From Microcoleus sp. bin48.metabat.b7b8b9.023 (GTDB taxonomy: Bacteria; Cyanobacteriota; Cyanobacteriia; Cyanobacteriales; Microcoleaceae), in the NCBI RefSeq assembly GCF_013299185.1, contig NZ_JAAFKG010000014.1, positions 57,244 through 121,243 on the forward strand: a stretch of 64,000 nucleotides of DNA, written 5' to 3'. Positions 8,709 through 60,171 of this stretch are shown here, in pieces (positions within the stretch are counted from its first letter, which is position 1; every line of letters begins with the position of its first letter). Under the pieces are notes generated by a model. That model was not told where the DNA came from, made no database searches, and saw nothing but the letters and a program-made list of their open reading frames with translations. Both the position numbers and the translations under genes were made by a program.

Positions 8709-8866
8709 ACTGATTTTAGATTTGGGGATTGGGCATGGGGCATCGGGCATCGGGCATTGGGCATTTTGGCAATTATATTGTTCCGAGTGGTATGGGCTTT
8801 TCTTAAGTTTGTTAGGGATAACAGTTGACAGTGAACTCTACCTGGAAGGAAGAGGATTTGATTAAA

Positions 8867-13382: not shown

Positions 13383-13450
13383 GGGTTTGCAGTCAGGACT
13401 TCAGTCCTTCCGGTTGGAGTGAAGAAGGACTAAAGTCCTCACTACAAACC
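13383..13450. repeat. family D hairpin repeat (AGGACTTCAGTCC...GGACTAAAGTCCT)
   Basis: Inverted arms TTTG(C/T)AGT(C/G)AGGACTT / AAGTCCTCACTACAAACC. Confidence 0.8.
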
Positions 13451-15267: not shown

Positions 15268-15474
15268 GTTCGTAGTGCGGACTTCAGTCCGCAATCCGGA
15301 TGCGGACTGAAGTCCGCACTACGAGCCTTACTTATTGTGATTAATCGATCGGACAAGGTATCCGATCTCAGTTCGTAGTGCGGACTTCAGTCCGCAATCC
15401 GGCTGCGGACTGAAGTCCGCACGTGCGTTCCTTACTTATTGTGATTAATCGATCGGACAGGATATCCGATCTCA
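15268..15474. repeat. tandem duplication (~103 bp period) of family D hairpin plus TTACTTATTGTGATTAATCGATCGGACA spacer
   Basis: Two near-identical consecutive copies. Confidence 0.9.
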
Positions 15475-16280: not shown

Positions 16281-16339
16281 GGTTTGTAGTGAGGACTTTA
16301 GTCCTTCTTTTTTGCGGACTAAAGTCCTCACTACAAACC
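16281..16339. repeat. family D hairpin repeat
   Basis: GGTTTGTAGTGAGGACTTTAGTCC...GGACTAAAGTCCTCACTACAAACC. Confidence 0.85.
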
Positions 16340-24812: not shown

Positions 24813-25021
24813 TTCCTGGTTTTGATTTTTGTATATAAGTGCGATCTACCTTTGAGATGAAAGGGCGATCTTGAGACATCATTTGATTTTGAATATTCCT
24901 TAATCTCAATACAAAATAACACGAATATTTTGGCGATTCGTGAGGTTGGAGTAAACGAGCTAAACCGGGTTTTTGAGTCCCTGGGCTTAGTACAAGAAAC
25001 CGGGTTTCTGCGAGGATTTAC

Positions 25022-25395
25022 GCCTCCTCACCGAGATTTTGGAGAGAAACCCGGTTTCTGAGGCCCTGCGCGATCGCCCCCAAATCCAAGAAACCGGGTT
25101 TCTGCGACAATTTTCGCATCCCCACCAGATTTTGGAGAGAAACCCGGTTTCTGAGGCCCTGCGCGATCGCCCCCAAATCCAAGAAACCGGGTTTCTGCGA
25201 CAATTTTCGCATCCCCACCAGATTTTGGAGAGAAACCCGGTTTCTGAGGCCCTGCGCGATCGCCCCCAAATCCAAGAAACCGGGTTTCTGCGACAATTTT
25301 CGCATCCCCACCAGATTTTGGAGAGAAACCCGGTTTCTGAGGCCCTGCGCGATCGCCCCCAAATCCAAGAAACCGGGTTTCTGCGACAATTTTTG
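25022..25395. repeat. four-copy tandem repeat, 93-bp period, of AAACCGGGTTTCT palindromes
   Basis: GAGAGAAACCCGGTTTCTGAGGCCCTGCGCGATCGCCCCCAAATCCAAGAAACCGGGTTTCTGCGACAATTTTCGCATCCCCACCAGATTTTG repeated. Confidence 0.93.
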
Positions 25396-25547
25396 ATGCC
25401 GAACCACTATCATTTATTGGTTTACCTGAAAACTAATCGTTTTTCTAACCTGATGCAGGCATTTACTCTGTCTTATGCCAAGGCTATTAATAAACGCTAT
25501 CAAAGAGTTGGTTCACTTTTTCAGGGACGGTTTGAGGCGATTCATGT
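25396..25547 (+). pseudogene. RAYT / Y1-type transposase fragment (catalytic HxH part)
   Basis: MPNHYHLLVYLKTNRFSNLMQAFTLSYAKAINKRYQRVGSLFQGRFEAIHV; N- and C-termini missing. Confidence 0.82.
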
Positions 25548-25770
25548 GGGAGCATCTCAATTTTGTAAAAAGCATTTTTTTTATTATAGTGCTGTCCCCG
25601 CTCGCGTATTGTACAACTCGCGACCGGGGACAGCACTATATATAGCCTTTCTCAAAAAGATGAGGTATAACTGACAGCCCACACAACCCTTAAACCAAGA
25701 GGGCCAAAGCCCAACAACATACCTCATATGAGAGCTAGATCCGCTATAAATGAAAAACTGAGATGCTCCC
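25548..25770. mobile_element. MITE family B copy (GGGAGCATCTCA...TGAGATGCTCCC), interrupted by family A
   Basis: Same termini and interior as 47708-47829. Confidence 0.85.
25641..25747. mobile_element. MITE family A copy nested inside family B element
   Basis: TATAGCCTTTCTCAAAAAGATGAGGTATAACTGACAGCC...CCGCTATA; the uninterrupted B copy lacks it. Confidence 0.82.
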
Positions 25771-32725: not shown

Positions 32726-32785
32726 GGTTCGTAGTGAGGACTTCAGTCCGCATCAAATGCAAGGGCTGAAGTCCTCACTACGAAA
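32726..32785. repeat. family D hairpin repeat
   Basis: GGTTCGTAGTGAGGACTTCAGTCC...GGCTGAAGTCCTCACTACGAAAC. Confidence 0.85.
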
Positions 32786-33711: not shown

Positions 33712-36700
33712 ATGAATAGCAAATTTCTCGATCGACTCCACCACCCCTCGCGCCCAGTCATCGTCTTCGACGGCGCCATGGGAACCAACCTGCAAGTCCA
33801 AAACCTCACCGCAGAAGACTTCGGCGGTAAAGAATACGAAGGCTGTAACGAATATCTCGTGCACACCAAGCCGGAAGCAGTCGCCATCGTGCACCGAGGA
33901 TTCCTCGAAGCAGGCGCCGATGTCATCGAAACAGACACCTTCGGCGCTGCTTCCATCGTGCTCGCGGAGTACGATTTAGCAGACAAAGCCTATTATCTCA
34001 ACAAAACGGCGGCTGAACTCGCCAAGAATATCGCAGCAGAATTTGACACGCCCGAAAAACCGAGATTTGTCGCAGGATCGATCGGCCCTGGCACCAAATT
34101 GCCAACCTTAGGACACATTGATTTTGACACGCTTACCGCCGCTTTTACCGAACAAGCAGAAGGACTTTATGACGGTGGCGTTGACTTATTTATTGTCGAA
34201 ACTTGTCAAGATGTACTGCAAATTAAATCAGCATTAAATGCCATTGAAGAAGTATTTAAGAAAAAAGGTGCGCGGATTCCGTTAATGGTATCAGTCACAA
34301 TGGAAGCCACCGGCACAATGTTAGTCGGTTCCGACATCAGCGCCGCTTTAGCTATTTTGCAGCCCTATCCCATAGATATTTTAGGATTAAACTGCGCCAC
34401 CGGGCCCGATCGCATGGCGGAACACGTCAAATATCTATCCGAACATTCGCCCTTCGTGGTTTCCTGCGTACCAAACGCTGGTTTACCCGAAAACATTGGC
34501 GGCCACGCACACTACAAACTGACGCCGATTGAATTAAAAATGGCCTTGATGCGCTTCGTCGAAGACTTAGGCGTGCAAGTCATCGGCGGCTGCTGTGGCA
34601 CTCGCTACGATCACATCCGCGAACTGTCAGAAATTGGCACAACTCTTAAACCCAAGATTCGCGAAATTACTTGGGAACCAGCCGCTGCTTCAATTTATAG
34701 CGCCCAACCCTACGAACAAGAAAATTCCTTCTTAATTGTCGGGGAAAAACTCAACGCTAGCGGTTCCAAAAAATGCCGCGATTTGCTAAACGCTGAAGAC
34801 TGGGACGGTTTAGTAGCAATGGCTAGAGAACAAGTGCGAGAAGGCGCGCACGTTCTCGATGTCAACGTCGATTATGTCGGGCGCGACGGCGTGCGCGATA
34901 TGAAAGAATTAGTTTCTCGCGTTGTGACTAATGCAACTCTGCCTTTAATGCTGGATTCCACCGAGTGGGAAAAGATGGAAGCTGGCTTAAAAGTGGCGGG
35001 CGGCAAATGTTTGCTAAATTCTACCAACTATGAAGACGGAGAACCGCGTTTTTATCAAGTTTTGGAGTTGGCGAAAAAATACGGCGCGGGGATTGTGATC
35101 GGGACGATTGACGAAGACGGGATGGCGCGAACTGCTGACCAAAAATTTGCGATCGCCCAACGCGCCTACAACGCTGCCCTCGCCTACGGAATTCCCGCCT
35201 CAGAACTCTTTTTTGACACCCTGGCTTTGCCAATTTCTACCGGGATTGAAGAAGACCGAAAAAACGGCAAAGCTACCATCGAATCCATCCGCCGCATCCG
35301 CCAAGAATTGCCGGGATGTCACGTGATTTTGGGAGTTTCTAACATTTCCTTTGGCTTGAATCCGGCGGCGCGCCAAGTTCTCAATTCCATGTTTTTGCAC
35401 GAAGCGATGCAGGCGGGGATGGATTCGGCTATTATCAGCGCTAATAAGATTTTGCCGATCGCCAAAATCGACCCCAAACACCAAGAAATCTGCCGCAAAC
35501 TGATCTACGACCAACGCGAGTTCGACGGCGATATTTGCGTTTACGACCCCTTGGGCGACCTGACAACGGTGTTTGCGGGCAAAACTACCAAGCGCGATCG
35601 TACCCAAGACGAAAACCTCCCCGTCGAAGAACGATTGAAGCGCCACATCATCGACGGCGAACGCATCGGCCTCGACATCCAACTAGCCAAAGCATTAGAA
35701 ACCTATCCGCCACTGCAAATTATCAATACCTTCTTGTTAGATGGGATGAAAGTAGTCGGAGAATTGTTCGGATCGGGACAAATGCAATTGCCATTTGTAT
35801 TGCAGTCAGCAGAAACCATGAAAGCGGCAGTTGCTTATTTAGAACCGTACATGGAAAAGTCCGAATCCGGGGACAATGCTAAAGGCACATTTATCATTGC
35901 AACTGTCAAAGGCGACGTTCACGACATCGGCAAAAACTTAGTTGATATTATCCTATCAAACAACGGCTACCGAGTAATTAATTTGGGAATTAAACAGCCA
36001 GTTGACAATATCATCGAAGCCTACGAAAAGCACAAAGCTGATTGTATCGCCATGAGTGGCTTGCTGGTAAAATCTACCGCATTTATGAAGGAAAATCTGG
36101 AAGTATTCAACCAGAAAGGAATCACTGTCCCCGTAATTTTGGGAGGTGCTGCTTTGACTCCCAAGTTTGTCCATGAAGACTGCCAAAATACCTATAAAGG
36201 TAAAGTCGTTTACGGCAAAGATGCGTTTTCTGACTTGCATTTTATGGACAAACTGATGCCAGCCAAATCTGCTGGAAACTGGGAAGATTTGGCTGGATTT
36301 TTAGATGAAGTTGGGAGTGAGAATGGGGTGGTGAAAGCAGCTAAAACTTCGGCAGAAACTGCGGTTGAGGATGCGAAGAAGGCAGACACTCCGGTGATTG
36401 TTGATACCAAGCGTTCCGAAGCAGTTGATGCAAATATCGATCGCCCGAATCCTCCTTTCTGGGGAACCAAACTGTTATCGCCCGAAGAAATCCCCTTTGA
36501 AGAGCTTTTCTGGCACTTAGATTTGCAAGCATTAGTCGCGGGACAGTGGCAATTCCGCAAGCCAAAAGACCAATCGCGAGAAGAATACGATGCTTTCTTG
36601 GCAGAGAAAGTTTATCCCATACTGGAAGAATGGAAACACAAAATTATTACCGAAAAGTTACTGCATCCCCAAGCAATTTACGGGTATTTTCCTTGTCAAG

Positions 36701-37263
36701 CTGAGGGAAATTCGTTGCATATTTACAACCCGGAAATTATGAGTAACGGGCAAGATGTATCTACACCCGCCACAACATTGACATTTCCCCGGCAAAAATC
36801 GGCGCGCAGGCTGTGCATTGCCGACTTCTTCGCGCCGAAAGAATCGGGCAAAATCGATGTATTTCCGATGCAAGTGGCGACGGTGGGAGAAGTTGCTACG
36901 GAGTACGCCCAAAAGCTATTTGCTAACAATCAATATACCGATTACCTCTACTTCCACGGGTTGGCGGTACAGACAGCGGAAGCGGTAGCAGAATGGACTC
37001 ACGCGCGGATTCGCCGAGAATTGGGCTTTGCTAGCGAGGAACCGGACAACATTCGGGATATGCTGGCGCAGCGATATCGCGGTTCGCGCTACAGTTTCGG
37101 CTATCCGGCTTGTCCGAATATGGCGGATCAGTACAAGCAATTAGATTTGTTAAAGTGCGATCGTATAAACCTGTACATGGATGAAAGCGAACAGCTTTAT
37201 CCGGAACAATCCACCACTGCAATTATCACCTATCACCCAGCCGCGAAATACTTCAGTGCTTAA
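33712..37263 (+). CDS. metH: cobalamin-dependent methionine synthase
   Basis: 1183 aa; [28 protein letters not shown]12-binding DVHDIGKNL. Confidence 0.94.
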
Positions 37264-37309: not shown

Positions 37310-38413
37310 GGTTTGTAGTGAGGACTTTAGTCCGCATTTGGAGAGGACTAACTGGTTTGTAGTGAGGACTTTAGTCCGCATTTGGAGAGAACTAAAGTCC
37401 TGACTACGAACCTCTATTATGGGTTTGTAGTGAGGACTTTAGTCCGCATTTAGAGAGGACTAACTGGTTTGTAGTGAGGACTTTAGTCCGCATTTGGAGA
37501 GGACTAAAGTCCTGACTACGAACCTCTATTATGGGTTTGTAGTGAGGACTTTAGTCCGCATTTGGAGAGGACTAACTGGTTTGTAGTGAGGACTTTAGTC
37601 CGCATTTGGAGAGGACTAAAGTCCTGACTACGAACCTCTATTATGGGTTTGTAGTGAGAACTTTAGTCCGCATTTGGAGAGGACTAACTGGTTTGTAGTG
37701 AGGACTTTAGTCCGCATTTGGAGAGGACTAACTGGTTTGTAGTGAGGACTTTAGTCCGCATTTGGAGAGGACTAAAGTCCTGACTACGAACCTCTATTAT
37801 GGGTTTGTAGTGAGGACTTTAGTCCGCATTTGGAGAGGACTAAAGTCCTGACTACGAACCTCTATTATGGGTTTGTAGTGAGACTACGAACCTCTATTAT
37901 GGGTTTGTAGTGAGGACTTTAGTCCGCATTTGGAGAGGACTAAAGTCCTGACTACGAACCTCTATTATGGGTTTGTAGTGAGGACTTTAGTCCGCATTTG
38001 GAGAGGACTAACTGGTTTGTAGTGAGGACTTTAGTCCGCATTTAGAGAGGACTAAAGTCCTCACTACGAACCTCTATTATGGGTTTGTAGTGAGGACTTT
38101 AGTCCGCATTTGGAGAGGACTAAAGTCCTGACTACGAACCTCTATTATGGGTTTGTAGTGAGGACTTTAGTCCGCATTTGGAGAGGACTAAAGTCCTGAC
38201 TACGAACCTCTATTATGGGTTTGTAGTGAGGACTTTAGTCCGCATTTGGAGAGGACTAAAGTCCTGACTACGAACCTCTATTATGGGTTTGTAGTGAGGA
38301 CTTTAGTCCGCATTTGGAGAGGACTAAAGTCCTGAATACGAACCTCTATTATGGGTTTGTAGTGAGGACTTTAGTCCGCATTTGGAGAGGACTAAAGTCC
38401 TGACTACGAACCT
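37310..38413. repeat. large tandem array of family D hairpin units (~19 units; 68-bp and 44-bp types)
   Basis: GTTTGTAGTGAGGACTTTAGTCCGCATTTGGAGAGGACTAAAGTCCTGACTACGAACCTCTATTATGG repeated. Confidence 0.97.
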
Positions 38414-38481
38414 AGAAAATAAAAAAGCACCTTAAAAAAAGTGCTTTTATCAACATGAAGTTTGATTGTCTGACCAAACTT

Positions 38482-39105
38482 TTACAAATGATTCCGGGGA
38501 GTACGGGCGCCGGCAGATGCTCCAGCCATTGAAGCAACCAAACCCAATAACGAGCCGAACAAAAATGACCAACCAGCTTTCGCGGCATTTTCAGCAATAT
38601 TGCGAGCATCCTGAGCAGAAACGCTAGGCGCTTGGTTGGGGAGATTCACATTACCTTGCTGCGCTTGATTAATCGCTGCTCCGGCATTCGCTGCTACTAC
38701 GCCAAAAGTCCCGGCTACGCCATTTGCTAACAGCCAAGAGCCAATTGTTAAGGTAGTTGCCCACAAAATTGCCCCGTTCAAAAGCGCGGTGCTGCGGTTC
38801 ATCGGGCCGCAAGCGCGTGCAGTTACCCAACCGCCAACGCCCAAGCTGATTAATAAACTGATAATTGACCAAATTCCTACTCCGGTACCCACGCTGCCGG
38901 CTATACTGCGGGGAGCTCCTGAATTAGCAATGTTGCTCAAACCGATCGCAGCACCCAATGCACTTAACACCAGTTGTGTGCCAATTGCAATTACCAAACC
39001 TGAAAAAATTGGGCCCCACCGCACTAAATCGTGATATTCCATGACCGGCTTAACTAGAGTCTGCTCGGTAACAACGTTGTCTACTGGTCTATTTACGTAT
39101 GCCAT
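38482..39105 (-). CDS. hypothetical multi-TM glycine-rich membrane protein
   Basis: Several hydrophobic Gly/Ala-rich segments, 207 aa. Confidence 0.7.
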   Translation of the reverse strand: MAYVNRPVDNVVTEQTLVKPVMEYHDLVRWGPIFSGLVIAIGTQLVLSALGAAIGLSNIANSGAPRSIAGSVGTGVGIWSIISLLISLGVGGWVTARACGPMNRSTALLNGAILWATTLTIGSWLLANGVAGTFGVVAANAGAAINQAQQGNVNLPNQAPSVSAQDARNIAENAAKAGWSFLFGSLLGLVASMAGASAGARTPRNHL

Positions 39106-52631: not shown

Positions 52632-52648
52632 GTTTATAGGGAGGCACG

Positions 52649-52771
52649 TTTGTAGTGTGAACTTTAGTCCGCAGAATTTTATGAGCACGTGCATTCCGAA
52701 GATCGAACCAGGTTTGTAGTGAGGACTTTAGTCCGCAGAATTTTATGAGCACTAGCATTCCCATCGAACCA
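52649..52771. repeat. tandem duplication with family D half-hairpin
   Basis: GTTTGTAGTG(A/T)G(G)ACTTTAGTCCGCAGAATTTTATGAGCAC...ATCGAACCAG twice. Confidence 0.8.
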
Positions 52772-52974
52772 GGTTTGTAGTTGTGCGATCGCACACAATC
52801 TCAACAAGCTGTTGCTATACTTGGCCTGGACTGGATATTGCTGAGTAGTTTGCCATCAGCAAGCCAGTGAACTATCATAAAATTGTCAGAATGTTAAAAA
52901 ATGTAAATATCGTCAGTGGGGTGTGTCGGAATTTTCAACGGGATTAAAAAGTGAACAGCAGGAAACCTTGACAG

Positions 52975-59084: not shown

Positions 59085-59999
59085 ATGGCAAACTCAGTTT
59101 TAAATAAGCCAAACGCAGCAGCAGGAGTGCAGTGGCAGCCAAAAGATATTATCCGCGGCCTAGTGTGGAAAATTGCGATCGCAACCTGGCTGTTGATGGC
59201 AGTAGGCAGCGCCACGCGCGTGATGAATGCGGGGCTCGCTTGCCCCGACTGGCCGCTGTGCTACGGTCAATTAATACCCGCAGCGCAAATGAATTTGCAG
59301 GTATTTCTGGAGTGGTTCCACCGTTTGGATGCAGCAGCAATTGGCTTAAGCGCGATCGCCCTTTTAGCACTTTCTGTCTTCTACCGCAGCCGCCTGCCGA
59401 CCTGGCTGCCCCTGGCCAGCGCCGGCGCAGTATTTTTAATAGTTTTTCAGGGCATATTGGGCGGCCTCACCGTGACGCAACTGCTGCGATTTGACATCGT
59501 TACCGCTCACTTGGGAGCAGCTTTACTGTTTTTTTGCGCCCTGCTAGCGATCGGTTTTATGCTGACTCCCTACGAAGCTACAGGCAATACAGGCAAATTA
59601 GCCTGGGTAAGTTCGATCGCAGCACTGCTAGTTTATCTCCAAAGTCTGCTCGGAGCATTAGTCGGCTCTAGATGGGCGCTGCATCAATGTTTTGGTTCGT
59701 CAGAATTGTGTTCGGTAATGAACAGCCACATCATCGGCATCGTACCCGCTACCGCAGCAACTTTAGCAGTATCAGTGATGGCTTGGCGGCAACCATCACT
59801 CCATTCAAACTTGCGAAAATTAGGGAATTTAGCGAGTCTTTGTCTGATTGCTCAATTAGTTTTGGGATTGGCAACTTTCCGGCTGCACCTTCAGGTAGAA
59901 CCGCTGACAGTCGCCCACCAAGCAGTCGGCGCAGCCTTGCTGGGAACTCTGCTAGCTTTTAGTGTTTTGTCGTGGCGCGATCGGGTTTTATCAACTTGA
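59085..59999 (+). CDS. ctaA: heme A synthase (COX15/CtaA)
   Basis: VGSATRVMNAGLACPDWPLCYGQLIP...FLEWFHRLDAA...VAHQAVGAALLGTL. Confidence 0.92.
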   Translation: MANSVLNKPNAAAGVQWQPKDIIRGLVWKIAIATWLLMAVGSATRVMNAGLACPDWPLCYGQLIPAAQMNLQVFLEWFHRLDAAAIGLSAIALLALSVFYRSRLPTWLPLASAGAVFLIVFQGILGGLTVTQLLRFDIVTAHLGAALLFFCALLAIGFMLTPYEATGNTGKLAWVSSIAALLVYLQSLLGALVGSRWALHQCFGSSELCSVMNSHIIGIVPATAATLAVSVMAWRQPSLHSNLRKLGNLASLCLIAQLVLGLATFRLHLQVEPLTVAHQAVGAALLGTLLAFSVLSWRDRVLST

Positions 60000-60119
60000 A
60001 ATAGACGTGTTGATTGATTCGGCGGTTGAAACCGCTACTACTACACAAACGAAGTCCGCTGGAAATAGACGTGTTGATTGATTCGGCGGTTGAAACCGCT
60101 ACTACACAAACGAAGTCCG
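59998..60119. repeat. 64-bp direct tandem duplication between ctaA and ctaB
   Basis: GAAATAGACGTGTTGATTGATTCGGCGGTTGAAACCGCTACT...ACACAAACGAAGTCCGC twice. Confidence 0.92.
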
Positions 60120-60171
60120 CCTCCGCGGACTGAATGACCAATGAAAACTAACAACTAATAATTAATCACAA

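Follow-up and report, generated by a model that had tools for sequence, protein, structure and literature searches.

How REPs (here GTAG-tagged palindromic repeats) spread, and why some of them turn into tandem arrays, is an unsettled question, and it is raised by the gap between metH and a convergent gene in the window, i.e. the whole stretch of 64,000 nucleotides that was analysed. In this gap the repeat forms an array 1.1 kb in length. What kind of element is this, how did it arise, and does it serve metH or its neighbour? The genus provides a natural comparison, since some of its genomes carry the cognate enzyme and others lack it, the repeats number in the thousands, and the metH gap can be read across relatives as empty of this REP, seeded, lightly expanded and heavily expanded. 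We conclude that the array is very probably a cluster of the BIME-2/REPIN type, built from dimers of a GTAG-tagged REP that were scattered by a REP-associated tyrosine transposase (RAYT) and multiplied in place. It belongs to a kind of bacterial repeat that is already known, of which it is a large case, and is not a new device; it can be explained without any special local function.

Architecture of the array

Unit boundaries were defined by cuts at GTTTGTAG, which gives exactly 19 units from position 37311, a copy number that is that of one draft assembly. A previous sequence-only reading had estimated about 19 units, a mixture of 68-bp full and 44-bp half-units, and dissection recovers this almost exactly: 12 full units of 68 bp (A), six half-units of 44 bp (B) and one collapsed unit of 32 bp (Table 1). 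The order of units given in that reading is also reproduced in full (B-A, B-A, B-A, B-B-A, A, collapsed, A, B-A, A, A, A, A, A), with the terminal A unit continuing into flanking DNA. The individual REP has the form GTAG-TGA-GGACT-TT-AGTCC, where GTAG lies 5' of a short palindrome. An A unit consists of GGTTTGTAGTGAGGACTTTAGTCC, an 11-base loop, the near reverse complement GGACTAAAGTCCTGACTACGAACC and a short linker, while in the half-units one palindrome is intact and most of the second is lost. The collapsed unit, previously suspected to be a deletion scar, has indeed undergone a 36-bp deletion that takes out the stem-loop. Point changes are found in only five units (2, 3, 7, 14 and 18). A 69-nt unit folds into one hairpin as DNA (-21.4 kcal/mol, z = -9.2), and the unit also folds into one hairpin as RNA (-39.7 kcal/mol, z -9.9).

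The placement of the array between convergent genes, metH on the left and a gene described as encoding a membrane protein on the right, stands as far as the gap and the convergence are concerned; the membrane nature of the right neighbour is a judgement by eye. This 207-aa ORF has no match among Pfam or NCBIfam families. A CRISPR array was considered and rejected, as the linkers of the array are identical and are not unique spacers of equal size. A known RNA family was likewise rejected; the only Rfam match in the window is one tRNA.

Table 1. Coordinates of the array, its parts, its neighbours and the other copies of the repeat in the window.
Feature	Position	Strand	Basis
Whole array, 19 units of the GTAG-tagged palindromic repeat (REP), mainly head-to-head dimers; final few bases are flank	37311..38420	+	unit dissection
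First A unit (68 bp): REP, loop, inverted REP, linker	37355..37422	+	unit dissection, fold
Starts of further A units	37467, 37579, 37735, 37803, 37903, 38015, 38083, 38151, 38219, 38287, 38355	+	unit dissection
First B half-unit (44 bp): one entire REP and a truncated inverted partner	37311..37354	+	unit dissection
Starts of further B half-units	37423, 37535, 37647, 37691, 37971	+	unit dissection
Collapsed unit (32 bp), without stem-loop (36-bp deletion)	37871..37902	+	unit dissection
Terminator-like signal (hairpin plus T run), downstream of the convergent ORF	38423..38448	-	terminator scan
metH, methionine synthase, left neighbour	33712..37263	+	TIGR02082, 1563 bits
Right neighbour: 207-aa ORF convergent with metH, probable membrane protein	38482..39105	-	ORF; synteny in 19 relatives
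Head-to-head REP dimer from the same family (GTAGTGCGGACTTCAGTCC variant), present twice in tandem, ~103 bp apart	15268..15424	.	
Lone head-to-head REP dimer	16281..16337	.	
Lone REP dimer, partly decayed	13383..13448	.	
Lone REP dimer with one diverged side	32726..32785	.	
Two tandem 64-bp units, one REP each	52648..52781	+	

Distribution of the repeat

At up to one mismatch, 43 REP cores are present in the window, against 0.18 expected from shuffled sequences. The hairpin had been said to occur singly at four places beyond the array, which is correct for 13383, 16281 and 32726, but two copies are already present at 15268. Across the 7.5 Mb genome the core GTAGTGAGGACTTTAGTCC has 879 exact copies, or 1,780 at up to one mismatch, and the pattern GTAGTNNGGACTNNAGTCC has 2,157 copies, compared with 0 for the reversed control.

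Clusters were ranked and counted in a sample of 1.09 Mb, or some 15% of the genome's length, which contains 417 REP copies in 95 clusters. Most of these copies (329) belong to the 45 clusters that have at least three, and of the 38 two-copy clusters 34 are head-to-head. With 30 copies detected, the metH-gap array is the biggest in the sample, followed by one of 21 REPs that adjoins a transposase gene. Many other sampled clusters are regular tandem arrays as well, the period differing from site to site. The suggestion that a dispersed element has amplified only here is thus refuted: searching the genome for other amplified loci reveals many, including the one beside the transposase gene.

As many as 81 of the 95 sampled clusters lie beyond ORFs as crudely called. 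With the same crude ORF calling, REP clusters occupy 35 of 149 convergent gaps, 41 of 487 co-directional gaps and 4 of 156 divergent gaps, and the difference between convergent and divergent gaps is significant (p = 2e-8). Placement away from divergent gaps fits selection against insertion near promoters, and REP clusters would persist mainly where the harm they do is small, in convergent and co-directional gaps and not in the divergent gaps that hold promoters.

Repeats of other kinds are also found in the window. The region 24993-25674 contains the remnant of another Y1 transposase-like ORF (PF01797, 25 bits), its front part having given way to an array (4.3 x 93 bp) of another palindrome, AGAAACCGGGTTTCT. 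Another dispersed repeat, GGCGGTTGAAACCGCTACTACACAAACGAAGTCCGC, is present as two tandem units of about 61-64 bp at 59998-60120, and G017 and G034 have it in their metH gaps, too. Short tandem repeats of heptamers, mostly CAGTTGA or its rotations or complement, are found at 8722, 8866, 10357, 20616, 47619 and 56757; they are of a kind known in filamentous cyanobacteria.

Origin in the metH gap

Convergent synteny of metH and the 207-aa ORF is found in 19 relatives. The linker GAACCTCTATTATGG occurs 12 times in the genome, always in the metH-gap array, and among the other 29 genomes of the genus it occurs once, in G031, at the orthologous site. Within the same outer flanks, the G031 gap carries one half-unit followed by three full units, with an unrelated insert between the first of these three and the other two; the half-unit junction of the window array is also found there. 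As linker and flanks are common to both, the seed of the array predates the split from G031. The confinement of the linker to the array and the G031 site further indicates that units multiplied in place (or were lost in G031), as opposed to arriving one by one. This supports the earlier proposal that a dispersed element expanded locally, by recombination or by slippage.

Two relatives have arrays of their own in the metH gap, with 70-bp units in G022 and 74-bp units in G014. Other relatives have unrelated palindromic repeats or no repeat in the gap, and G017, the nearest by the metH tree, has zero copies of the window REP there. Judging from these comparisons, the array is one that grew in place from an older seed, and the arrays of G022 and G014 are independent of it. 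The metH gaps of relatives (L101-L127) are also a landing site for several unrelated palindromic families, e.g. GTAGGGTGCGCAATGCGCAC and CTCGTTCCCAGG..CCTGGGAACGAG, and in G018 (L101) a duplicated 3' end of metH lies beside other repeats.

The history of the array may be reconstructed as follows. A GTAG-tagged REP (GTAG-TGA-GGACTTTAGTCC) and an inverted copy, head-to-head, form a long hairpin on one strand. A cognate single-strand HUH transposase-like protein (RAYT/TnpA-REP) would recognise GTAG together with the hairpin and scatter the dimers. One dimer and a truncated half-dimer were present in the metH gap before the split from G031. This seed then multiplied in place as head-to-tail units that include the linker, presumably because replication slipped or copies recombined unequally; deletions of hairpins would have produced the collapsed unit and probably the half-units too. 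The expansion is most simply explained by slippage at hairpins or by unequal recombination, and the data fit either of these or an enzyme-driven process.

The REP-associated transposase

A candidate for the cognate enzyme is encoded elsewhere in the genome, outside the window. The 199-aa ORF G000:C38:230864-231460 belongs to the REP-associated tyrosine transposases (NF047646, 97.5 bits, cut-off 80), and its best match in PDB is TnpA-REP 4er8 (E 6e-9). Its relatives show little or no variation in the HUH motif H85-Y86-H87 and in the tyrosine Y146, which lies in YIHNNP. The 21-REP array mentioned above lies immediately upstream of this gene; it includes ten dimers that belong to the same REP family, and a run of 10 N. 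The palindrome downstream has a diverged stem, GGAATGCGAGTCC.

Five orthologues in the genus are 89-95% identical to the transposase, and the neighbours that carry them bear the labels Microcoleus, Oscillatoriales cyanobacterium and filamentous cyanobacterium Phorm 6. In all six genomes the same REP is present next to the gene, at a distance of up to about 120 bp in the five with orthologues. By the pattern used it stands on both sides in G018, G035, G022 and G031, and on one side in G000 and G014. Remoter RAYTs (62-67%), from the same cyanobacterial family and from Calothrix, adjoin GTAG- or GTGG-tagged palindromes whose stems are different (e.g. GCACT/AGTGC and AGCCCTT/AAGGGCT with GTAG), as one would expect of an enzyme and a repeat that change in step. 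At 40-49% identity, relatives are also found in Planctomycetota and other phyla. The genome that carries the window has a second RAYT homologue, 65% identical (G000:C58:39804-40391), with no recognisable GTAG palindrome within 400 bp on either side.

The abundance of the repeat follows the presence of the enzyme. The six genomes that bear an orthologue contain 478-2,370 REP copies and include the four richest, while 22 of the 24 genomes without a close orthologue contain at most 217 (carriers versus non-carriers, Mann-Whitney p 3e-4). The two exceptions are G032, with 585 copies, and G017, with 598 copies and only a 66% homologue. G032 is a candidate for recent loss of the RAYT gene, or for use of another. 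The metH tree shows only about three events in which the transposase was gained or lost, so that descent alone could explain part of the association, and a sign test of RAYT against copy number, made on independent pairs, is not significant given so few events. Taking together the gene family, the flanking REPs and the association with copy number, we infer that the REPs were scattered by their cognate RAYT.

Alternative explanations

A more active part for the enzyme can be envisaged, in which the tandem arrays are the direct product of the transposase-like protein: it would nick REP dimers and transfer strands repeatedly, or copy the dimers locally by a rolling circle. In genomes that carry the gene arrays are common, the second largest of the sample abuts the transposase gene, and the linker is included in the arrays, as in REPIN clusters (PMC3116915). 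However, ordinary slippage at hairpins gives the same pattern, and short regular arrays are present also in other families of the same order (e.g. in G148 and G219), which may or may not carry this RAYT. We regard enzyme-made arrays as rather unlikely. Similarly doubtful is the wider proposal that, across the genus, the cognate RAYT or a linked process actively builds and turns over long arrays at many loci, which would make array length a fast-changing trait of strains. That the array is an artefact of assembly, with an inflated copy number or wrongly joined repeats, is very improbable. The draft genome is in 125 contigs and there are N in the array by the transposase gene, which shows that arrays were difficult to assemble, but the window array is free of them, its mixed units stand in a non-periodic order and carry private point changes, and related arrays are found at the same site in independent assemblies.

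The other alternatives attribute a role at metH to the array. In a bidirectional roadblock, RNA hairpins would stop or process the transcripts of metH and the convergent ORF, and array length would be selected for that; the position between convergent genes, the high stability of the RNA hairpin and the enrichment of REP clusters in convergent gaps all agree with such a role. Yet the hairpins have no T run: no intrinsic terminator (hairpin plus T run) is found within the array, and the only one, adjacent to it (38423-38448), has been retained, as read by eye, in 15 of 19 relatives, regardless of whether REPs or an array are present. In addition, the nearest relative, G017, has an intergenic gap empty of this REP, and large clusters show no greater preference for convergent gaps than small ones (p 0.8). 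The roadblock, which the sequence-only reading had also put forward, is not supported, there being no terminator-like signal in the array, and appears quite unlikely. Docking of a protein is a further option, for example of DNA gyrase, which would relieve supercoiling between the convergent genes. Clusters of BIME-2 bind DNA gyrase in E. coli, according to a background passage of PMC2817692, and the convergent position fits, but relatives lack the array, or have a replacement or a different unit, and a role that is not conserved at the site makes this analogy an unlikely explanation. More generally, a local function at metH was rejected because gap content varies between near relatives; as the terminator is mostly kept while the rest of the gap differs, a conserved local function of the array seems unlikely. 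Effects of the array on transcripts or supercoiling are possible.

Comparison with known systems

The GTAG tail, the high copy number, the head-to-head dimers and the tandem arrangement together with flanking DNA identify the array with clusters of GTAG-tagged REPs. A search of the literature for the exact repeat, including the string GTAGTGAGGACT, gave no relevant match in the papers searched. For GTAG-tagged REPs, among them the cyanobacterial GTAG-12, -15 and -16, the features described in PMC3733652 are a GTAG tail, short stem and short loop, as well as head-to-head dimers, tandem clusters with flanking DNA and a preference for convergent and co-directional gaps; all are found here, a likeness at the level of described features. 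The transposase resembles TnpA-REP subclass 2.8, which in that study is confined to Cyanobacteria (PMC6006769), in its length of about 199 aa, the motifs NHYH, W[YH] and YIH-NP, a proline-rich N-terminus and GT[AG]G REP flanks. This likeness is by motifs and length, and the tyrosine motif is YIHYNP in subclass 2.8 but YIHNNP here.

REPtron Mb of Marinomonas has a 5-bp palindrome two bases from GTAG with the loop TTTA, whereas the palindrome here is GGACT/AGTCC, three bases from GTAG, and both host and enzyme differ; cleavage has been shown for REPtron Mb, and the present system is known from sequence alone (PMC8266576). BIME-2 of E. coli also consists of tandem units of oppositely oriented REPs (PMC2817692), although its REP sequence is unrelated to the one described here. 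In Pseudomonas fluorescens SBW25, REPIN clusters consist of REP doublets that can form hairpins and recur in tandem along with the sequence beside them, and one cluster adjoins each RAYT gene (PMC3116915). They have in common with the present system the tandem doublets, a cluster beside the RAYT gene and the co-occurrence of singlets, doublets and clusters, but differ in stem, loop and host, and here most copies are in clusters. The largest REPIN cluster of SBW25 comprises four units and one REP in over 700 bp (PMC3116915), compared with 19 units in the 1.1 kb of the metH-gap array.
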